Assembly (NCBI GenBank): GCA_026645875.1
Contig: JAPKMQ010000007.1
Location: forward strand, 1-34,965
DNA: 34,965 bases
From: Longilinea sp.
GTDB taxonomy: Bacteria; Chloroflexota; Anaerolineae; Anaerolineales; Anaerolineaceae
Direction: 5' to 3'
The position numbers and the translations under genes are program-made. The notes under the pieces are model-generated. The model had not been told where the DNA came from and did no database searches. It saw only the letters and a program-made list of their open reading frames with translations. The first letter of the stretch is position 1, and the number at the start of each line of letters is the position of its first letter. This document shows positions 9,644 through 10,537 of this stretch, piece after piece.

Positions 9644-9678
9644 ATAGAAAATGGCGCGCACCAAGAAGATGCGCGCGC
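9644..9678 (-). terminator. Expression-platform terminator of the glycine riboswitch
   Basis: On the minus strand GCGCGCATC (9676-9668) pairs with GGTGCGCGC (9662-9654), nine pairs with one wobble around UUCUU, followed by ATTTTCTAT. It starts directly after the second aptamer, so its left arm can be shared with aptamer-proximal sequence, as in riboswitches that turn expression on with glycine. Confidence 0.65.
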
Positions 9679-9846
9679 TCTGTTGATGACCTGAGAGATT
9701 CGCCCGGCGGGTTTGCCCCTTCGGTGTCTTGCGACTTTCCAGAGGTTCTGGAGGGCAGGGTCCTGTTACCTGAGAGATTCGCGGTGGAAACGCCTTCCAG
9801 CCGTTTGCCCCTTCGGTGCCGGATGATTCCGGACTCTTCTCTACCC
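9679..9846 (-). promoter_or_regulatory. Tandem glycine riboswitch upstream of gcvH
   Basis: Two copies of the glycine aptamer lie head to tail on the minus strand. Each holds the conserved CACCGAAGGGGCAAA box (minus strand of 9804-9818 and 9712-9726) followed by AATCTCTCAGGT (around 9769-9780 and 9690-9700). The first aptamer spans about 9846-9762 and the second about 9755-9679, with the linker AACAGGACC between. Tandem architecture, order and placement before a gcv operon all fit the known glycine riboswitch class, which activates glycine catabolism at high glycine. Confidence 0.95.
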
Positions 9847-9981
9847 TCGCTATTCAATTGATGGGGACTACTAGGAATTGCTGGCTCCTTCATTATAACT
9901 GGAACCTTGCGAGCATGAGGCCGCTCACAAAAAAAATTATACCAGAATTCTCTTTTTACCGTGATGGTGAGTCAGGCCTAG
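9847..9981 (-). promoter_or_regulatory. Leader and probable promoter region of the gcv operon
   Basis: This gap holds no gene. Two perfect -10 hexamers TATAAT occur on the minus strand, at 9941-9936 (followed by an eight-T run) and 9897-9892. Neither has a good -35 at 16-18 bases, so which one is used is unclear. I found no terminator hairpin after the upstream rhodanese gene. Confidence 0.4.
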
Positions 9982-10473
9982 TTAAGGTTCAATTGGGTAG
10001 CCTGCGTTTGTCCACGCGCCCAACCCGCCCAGGAGGGGTTGTACCCGAGTAAAACCGGCATCCAGCAGTAAACGCGCTGCACGAGCGCTGGATTGTTCCG
10101 CTGGTCAGGTGCAGTAGGGAATGATCCAGGCATCCCGCTCAAGCTCTGGGATGGCTGATTCGATCTGCTCAAGCGGAATATTGACCGCGCCGGGGATACG
10201 CACCAGGTTAAAAGAATCAGCGGAGCGGACGTCCACGAAAATGGCCGTATTGGCATTAAAGGCGGTCAATGCGTCTGCCAGGCTGACTCGATCGATCTCT
10301 GGGTAAGGAATATCGCTAATGGCGGTCGGTTGTACGTTGGCCTGTGTGCCGCCAGCCTGTGAATTTATTAATGTCAGGATCAGAACAATTAAAATGAGTA
10401 CTGCCCCGACAGCGATGAGAATGAGTGGGCCGGTGCTGCTGGCAGGTTGAGCCCGTTTCTGTGATTTCGGCAT
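9982..10473 (-). CDS. Membrane-anchored rhodanese-like protein, probable selenoprotein (in-frame TGA)
   Basis: Read through one TGA (10107-10105, codon 123), the frame encodes 163 residues. An N-terminal segment of about 23 hydrophobic residues (15-37) anchors a rhodanese domain outside the membrane. Before the TGA lie FVDVRSADSF and IPGAVNIPLEQIE; after it follows PAEQSSARAARLL, then DAGFTRVQPLLGGLGAW and NAGYP, all typical rhodanese C-terminal elements in the same frame. The active loop reads Y-C-T-TGA-P; relatives often carry YCTCP or a similar CxC loop, so TGA replaces the second Cys. Ending translation at the TGA would remove a quarter of the domain. Start ATG 10473 has GAGGAG five bases upstream. 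A hairpin of SECIS-like geometry follows the TGA. Selenocysteine insertion is inference; a nonsense mutation or sequencing error is the alternative. Confidence 0.75.
10062..10104 (-). promoter_or_regulatory. Candidate bacterial SECIS hairpin
   Basis: Directly after the TGA, CCAGC (10104-10100) can pair with GCTGG (10066-10062); inside, GCGCT (nucleotides 17-21 after the TGA) pairs perfectly with AGCGC (27-31) around a CGUGC loop with G at its second position. Distance, stem and loop match the general pattern of bacterial SECIS elements and the position of the E. coli fdhF loop. Only base pairing is visible; function is inferred. Confidence 0.55.
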
Positions 10474-10537
10474 TGCAACTCCTCAACGAATAAGATTGTG
10501 ATAATGGTAAGGCAAGCAGATAAAAATAATATGAAAA

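Follow-up and report, generated by a model that had tools for sequence, protein, structure and literature searches.

Several kinds of rhodanese selenoprotein have been described, including a form with a Cys-x-Sec active-site loop (CxU) for which the model NF041203 is available (PMC13188914, PMC9312934). The family described by this model, rhodanese_LYCAU, appears as 'rhodanese-like form 3, CxU' in one survey (PMC13188914), and the CxU rhodanese is given as COG0607 form 2, CxU in another (PMC9312934). In the window, i.e., the whole 34,965-nucleotide stretch of DNA analysed here, the initial annotation proposed an unusual membrane-anchored selenoprotein rhodanese; its assignment as a selenoprotein stands, while the CxU type of rhodanese had already been described (PMC13188914). 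NF041203 is the best NCBIfam match of the window protein, whose score of 69.1 bits remains below the cut-off of 115, and the model matches all 36 NCBIfam-scanned members of the group (best member E 2.7e-28). The C-x-C/U loop that characterizes the model is present in the window protein as YCTU. As the best match lies under the cut-off, the curated test does not make the protein a member, and on the basis of sequence comparison it is placed in a sister subfamily that probably works like the NF041203 family. A literature search for rhodanese with Anaerolinea and selenocysteine, or for the Chloroflexota selenoproteome, returned nothing relevant.

The gene almost certainly encodes a full-length, membrane-anchored rhodanese with selenocysteine at codon 123 (Table 1). 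Its conventional open reading frame (10473..10105, minus strand) starts with ATG at 10473 and ends after 122 amino acids at the TGA at 10107-10105; another 40 codons follow in this frame up to a TAA at 9984-9982, giving a total of 163 residues, and this TGA is the sole interruption of the frame 10473..9982. The read-through sequence (...WIIPYCT-U-PAEQSSARAARLLLDAGF...GGLGAW...) comprises a basic N-terminus with a hydrophobic helix behind it, and then a rhodanese domain whose motif reads YCT-U-PAEQSSARAA. The score of the Pfam Rhodanese family (PF00581; gathering score 22.2) rises from 28.7 bits for the truncated product to 48.1 bits when the TGA is read as Sec, in agreement with the initial view that the frames on either side of the TGA form one rhodanese domain. 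AlphaFold, supplied with the window protein and 36 Cys homologues, predicts a helix at residues 17-39 and a pLDDT above 90 for most of residues 61-163; Foldseek matches the predicted domain to solved rhodaneses (E ~1e-9). The proposed N-terminal anchor is thus supported both by the sequence and by the predicted helix.

Table 1. Features of the selenoprotein rhodanese gene (coordinates within the window)
Feature	Coordinates	Strand	Evidence or remarks
Full selenoprotein gene, 163-residue membrane-anchored rhodanese	9982..10473	-	TGA read through, stop TAA
TGA codon 123, selenocysteine, YCT-U-P motif	10105..10107	-	TGA in 44/44 homologous loci and selection pattern 3' of the TGA
SECIS hairpin GCGCU-CGUGC-AGCGC	10074..10088, loop 10083-10079	-	Covariation and codon constraint; tree with at least 7 compensated switches
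N-terminal membrane helix, residues 17-39	10357..10425	-	Hydrophobic stretch behind basic N-terminus; AlphaFold helix 17-39
Rhodanese domain, residues ~60-163	9985..10296	-	Pfam PF00581 at 67-156; NF041203 at 60-162; Foldseek match to solved rhodanese structures
Likely ribosome-binding site, GAGGAG type, 5' of ATG	10480..10485	-	Read from the sequence

The homologue search covered the genome of the window (G000) and 120 relatives. Among these 121 genomes, 35 contain this domain type, in 44 homologous loci (L019-L062, the window locus included). All 44 loci carry a TGA at the same codon of the YCT-U motif and conserve the C-terminal part; among the next best matches without the TGA, those inspected belong to the ordinary CRSGNRS rhodaneses. 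Tyr120, Cys121, Thr122, Cys/Sec123, Glu126, and Ser129 are invariant. Over the 40 codons after the TGA, the gene of G000 differs from that of the congener G001 by 12 synonymous changes and one nonsynonymous change, and the dN/dS in this part is ~0.02-0.18 in six pairs. Were the TGA a plain stop, the gene would be a pseudogene, a truncated rhodanese, or the product of a sequencing error for TGC/TGT. TGA indeed terminates nine of the 25 main open reading frames of the window; however, a plain stop cannot account for a TGA shared by every locus together with so few amino acid changes downstream of it. Given also the covarying hairpin and the sel genes described below, the probability of a plain stop is negligible, and the pseudogene interpretation was rejected based on the conserved TGA and the SECIS. 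The selenoprotein rhodaneses constitute a subfamily common to dozens of related bacteria, a branch that had previously been unnamed. Standard gene calling stops the rhodanese 40 residues early, so members of this widespread subfamily would be recorded in annotations as broken rhodaneses.

The initial annotation also reported a hairpin after the TGA with a G in its apical loop, and this element shows covariation and codon constraint. In the window, the TGA is followed by 16 bases and then, from base 17, by the hairpin GCGCU-CGUGC-AGCGC; the loop of the hairpin, CGUGC, begins 22 nt after the UGA and has a G at the second position, a geometry that fits the general rules for bacterial SECIS elements. 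The 44 post-TGA stretches align without gaps, and RNAalifold, unprompted, finds in them one helix of five pairs (columns 20-24 with 30-34). Of the cells of these pairs, 98.1% are paired across the 44 loci, vs 15.8-58.1% in slid controls. The pair 24-30 is C-G in 34 loci, U-A in 10, and broken in none, while both sides of the pair 21-33 are changed in five loci. When the C-G/U-A label is mapped on the protein tree, seven switches are needed, and well supported branches require at least four of them. The wobble bases of two codons form the first pair and are compatible in 44/44 loci: if GCC encodes the first Ala, a G ends the codon two positions later, and if GCT does, this later codon is GCA. 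Codon usage in the loop is also biased, as CGT encodes the loop Arg in 35 of the 38 loci that keep this residue, compared with 17% at other Arg codons of the same genes (p 9e-24). In L044 the loop reads GGUCU, as in the fdhF SECIS of E. coli. The folding energy of the window hairpin stretch alone is unremarkable (z -0.3 to -1.5, single-sequence folding); the hairpin is established by comparison across loci, not by energy. The hairpin directly follows the UGA, has a small apical loop with a G among its first two positions, and covaries; it is a real SECIS.

The genome of the window encodes SelA (435 bits), SelB (above the cut-off, 631 aa), and SelD (L018 300-1235, G000:C68); selD has an in-frame TGA of its own (SSCAGUASK), followed by a hairpin with the loop UGAA at a distance similar to that of the rhodanese SECIS. 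A SAM riboswitch was observed near selA (L017 8590-8707, G000:C347). Of the four sel genes named in the initial annotation, selA, selB, and selD are present; tRNA-Sec (selC) was not found in the 387 contigs of G000 (90.6% complete), but it is present in both congeners, G001 (71.4 bits) and G002 (70.2 bits), which makes a gap in the assembly the likely reason for its absence. The matches to RF01852 in G000 turned out to be tRNA-Leu and tRNA-Trp and were rejected. Across the 121 genomes, tRNA-Sec and/or SelA accompany the gene in each of the 35 genomes that carry it, and the gene is absent from all 19 that lack both (p 8e-4, with the relatedness of the genomes ignored). The TGA might also be read through with another amino acid, by a leaky stop or a general recoding of TGA; apart from the missing tRNA-Sec in the G000 contigs, nothing specific favors this explanation. 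It is contradicted by the presence of selA, selB, and a Sec-containing selD, by the Cys found at the Sec position in homologues elsewhere, by the SECIS geometry and covariation of the hairpin, and by the termination of other genes of the window at TGA (gcvPA does end in TGA, as initially noted). Read-through with another residue is consequently very improbable, and general recoding was rejected on the same grounds.

Rhodaneses with Cys at the Sec position (YCTCP) occur in Nitrospira, Acidobacteriota, others, and one Anaerolineaceae among the named genomes scanned; the scan pattern demanded Cys at this position, so that only their existence counts and their number proves nothing. The homologues have Cys or Sec aligned with codon 123, as the initial annotation had anticipated, except for two distant relatives in the phylum, L188 (YTDQANE) and L189 (YGDAERP), which carry other residues at the Cys position as well as at the Sec position. 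The subfamily offers a clear set of Sec/Cys pairs within one fold, accompanied by covarying SECIS elements and by candidate double-Sec active sites, and this material would allow testing why Sec is chosen in an extracytoplasmic sulfur protein. Many of the YCTCP rhodaneses are apparently fused behind membrane domains that resemble DedA by sequence appearance, and in Anaerolineaceae NAT290 (L108) a CTC rhodanese follows a Na+/H+ exchanger-like (antiporter-like) domain. Sec counterparts of the latter exist in L062, L186, and L187, which combine a Na+/H+ exchanger-like protein with a C-terminal CTU rhodanese (exchanger confirmed by Pfam in L186).

In other families of the phylum, the homologues contain CTU and, in some cases, UTU. 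Two in-frame TGAs in the form U-T-U-P were found in L174 (G244), L175 (G380), L176 (G205), L177 (G321), L179 (G268), and L180 (G236), and in the form U-A-U-P in L178 (G220); L197 (G351) is a further match to the pattern with two in-frame TGAs. Most of the two-TGA rhodaneses have the same SECIS-like hairpin after the TGAs, and a reverse-read control pattern for the two-TGA motif gave no matches. These proteins are candidates for a double-selenocysteine active site. The UxU motif is absent from the text of a 2026 review of prokaryotic selenoproteins, and a text search yielded only an unrelated review. A set of rhodaneses across the phylum might use Cys-x-Sec and, in several lineages, Sec-x-Sec (UTU), with one short SECIS serving two UGAs two codons apart, an active site of the diselenide or selenenylsulfide type, and a location outside the cytoplasm in the window's branch; we consider the chances of this wider picture to be evenly balanced.

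The environment of the selenocysteine within the rhodanese fold can be aligned in two ways. All three MAFFT modes place Cys121 on the catalytic Cys of ordinary rhodaneses, followed by a two-residue insertion, whereas a profile alignment with 6mxv is gap-free and has the catalytic Cys opposite position 123. Judged from these alignments, the former placement, with Cys121 at the canonical catalytic position and Sec123 as an extra residue two positions on, appears more likely. The initial description of codon 123 as the second Cys of a CxC loop accordingly applies in part: homologues have Cys or Sec there, but the residue aligned in canonical rhodaneses is not Cys, and the Sec lies in a loop that is two residues longer.

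SelB and tRNA-Sec almost certainly decode UGA codon 123 as Sec under the direction of the hairpin just downstream, which doubles as the coding sequence for SARAA. The rhodanese domain is held by the single predicted N-terminal membrane helix, probably facing outside. The position of this helix behind a basic N-terminus suggests such a location, which we regard as very probable; the lipoprotein-like start (VAGC) of the related L181 is in line with it. In the proposed mechanism, a persulfide, polysulfide, or thiosulfate might donate sulfane sulfur to Cys121; Sec123 might resolve it through a Cys-S-Se-Sec bond, which another thiol system would then reduce. The protein would thereby act as an extracytoplasmic persulfide/disulfide redox enzyme or as a sulfur carrier. 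The assignment of Cys121 as sulfur acceptor and Sec123 as resolving residue is tentative, its probability falling somewhat short of even. The roles may also be exchanged, with Sec123 as the nucleophile that carries sulfur as a selenenyl sulfide and Cys121 as the resolving residue. Sec is the stronger nucleophile, and the 6mxv profile alignment agrees with this chemistry; the MAFFT alignments, with Cys121 on the catalytic Cys and the insertion after it, oppose it, and it is considered slightly less probable than the first assignment.

Neighboring genes differ between clades and hence imply no single pathway. A gene with a tRNA-editing domain is located upstream in seven homologous loci, and gcvH/gcvPA are located downstream in ten. 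In the window, a tandem glycine riboswitch (9678-9744 and 9748-9851, minus strand) lies between the rhodanese and gcvH. An MFS transporter is found at some loci, while in L033 and L049-L052 the genes after the Sec rhodanese encode a DUF1573 lipoprotein, a CCG-domain protein, and a FAD-linked oxidase (domains checked in L049). Directly upstream of the Sec rhodanese, L036, L046, L048, L057, and L059 have a P-type ATPase gene, with a heavy-metal domain in L057, the only one scanned. These five loci could point to an outer-face protein that handles metals (e.g., copper) instead of a sulfur enzyme; as the neighbors vary from clade to clade, such a role is improbable, and a sulfur-related function of the membrane-anchored rhodanese is preferred.

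Several described systems resemble the window protein in part. NF041203 rhodanese_LYCAU shares a rhodanese domain with a Cys-x-Sec active-site loop; the window protein differs in its additional N-terminal membrane helix, its YCTU loop, and a score of 69.1 bits, far under 115. Canonical single-domain rhodaneses (GlpE and PspE; PDB 1gmx, 3ilm, 3nhv, and 6mxv) have the same fold and the same position of the first Cys, whereas the window protein has a loop two residues longer (CTUPAEQS vs CRSGNR), a Sec, and a membrane anchor. The YCTCP/YCTUP membrane fusions (apparently DedA-like in Nitrospira and Acidobacteriota, Na+/H+ exchanger in L062, L186, and L187) possess the same loop, with Cys or Sec at the equivalent position, but their rhodanese stands behind a multi-pass membrane domain in place of a single helix. 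Finally, the TsoB rhodanese/DsbD fusion-like selenoprotein (NF045694) also contains a rhodanese domain with Sec; its motif is UxxxxU in a model of 572 positions, which the window protein matches weakly (23.6 bits vs 805).
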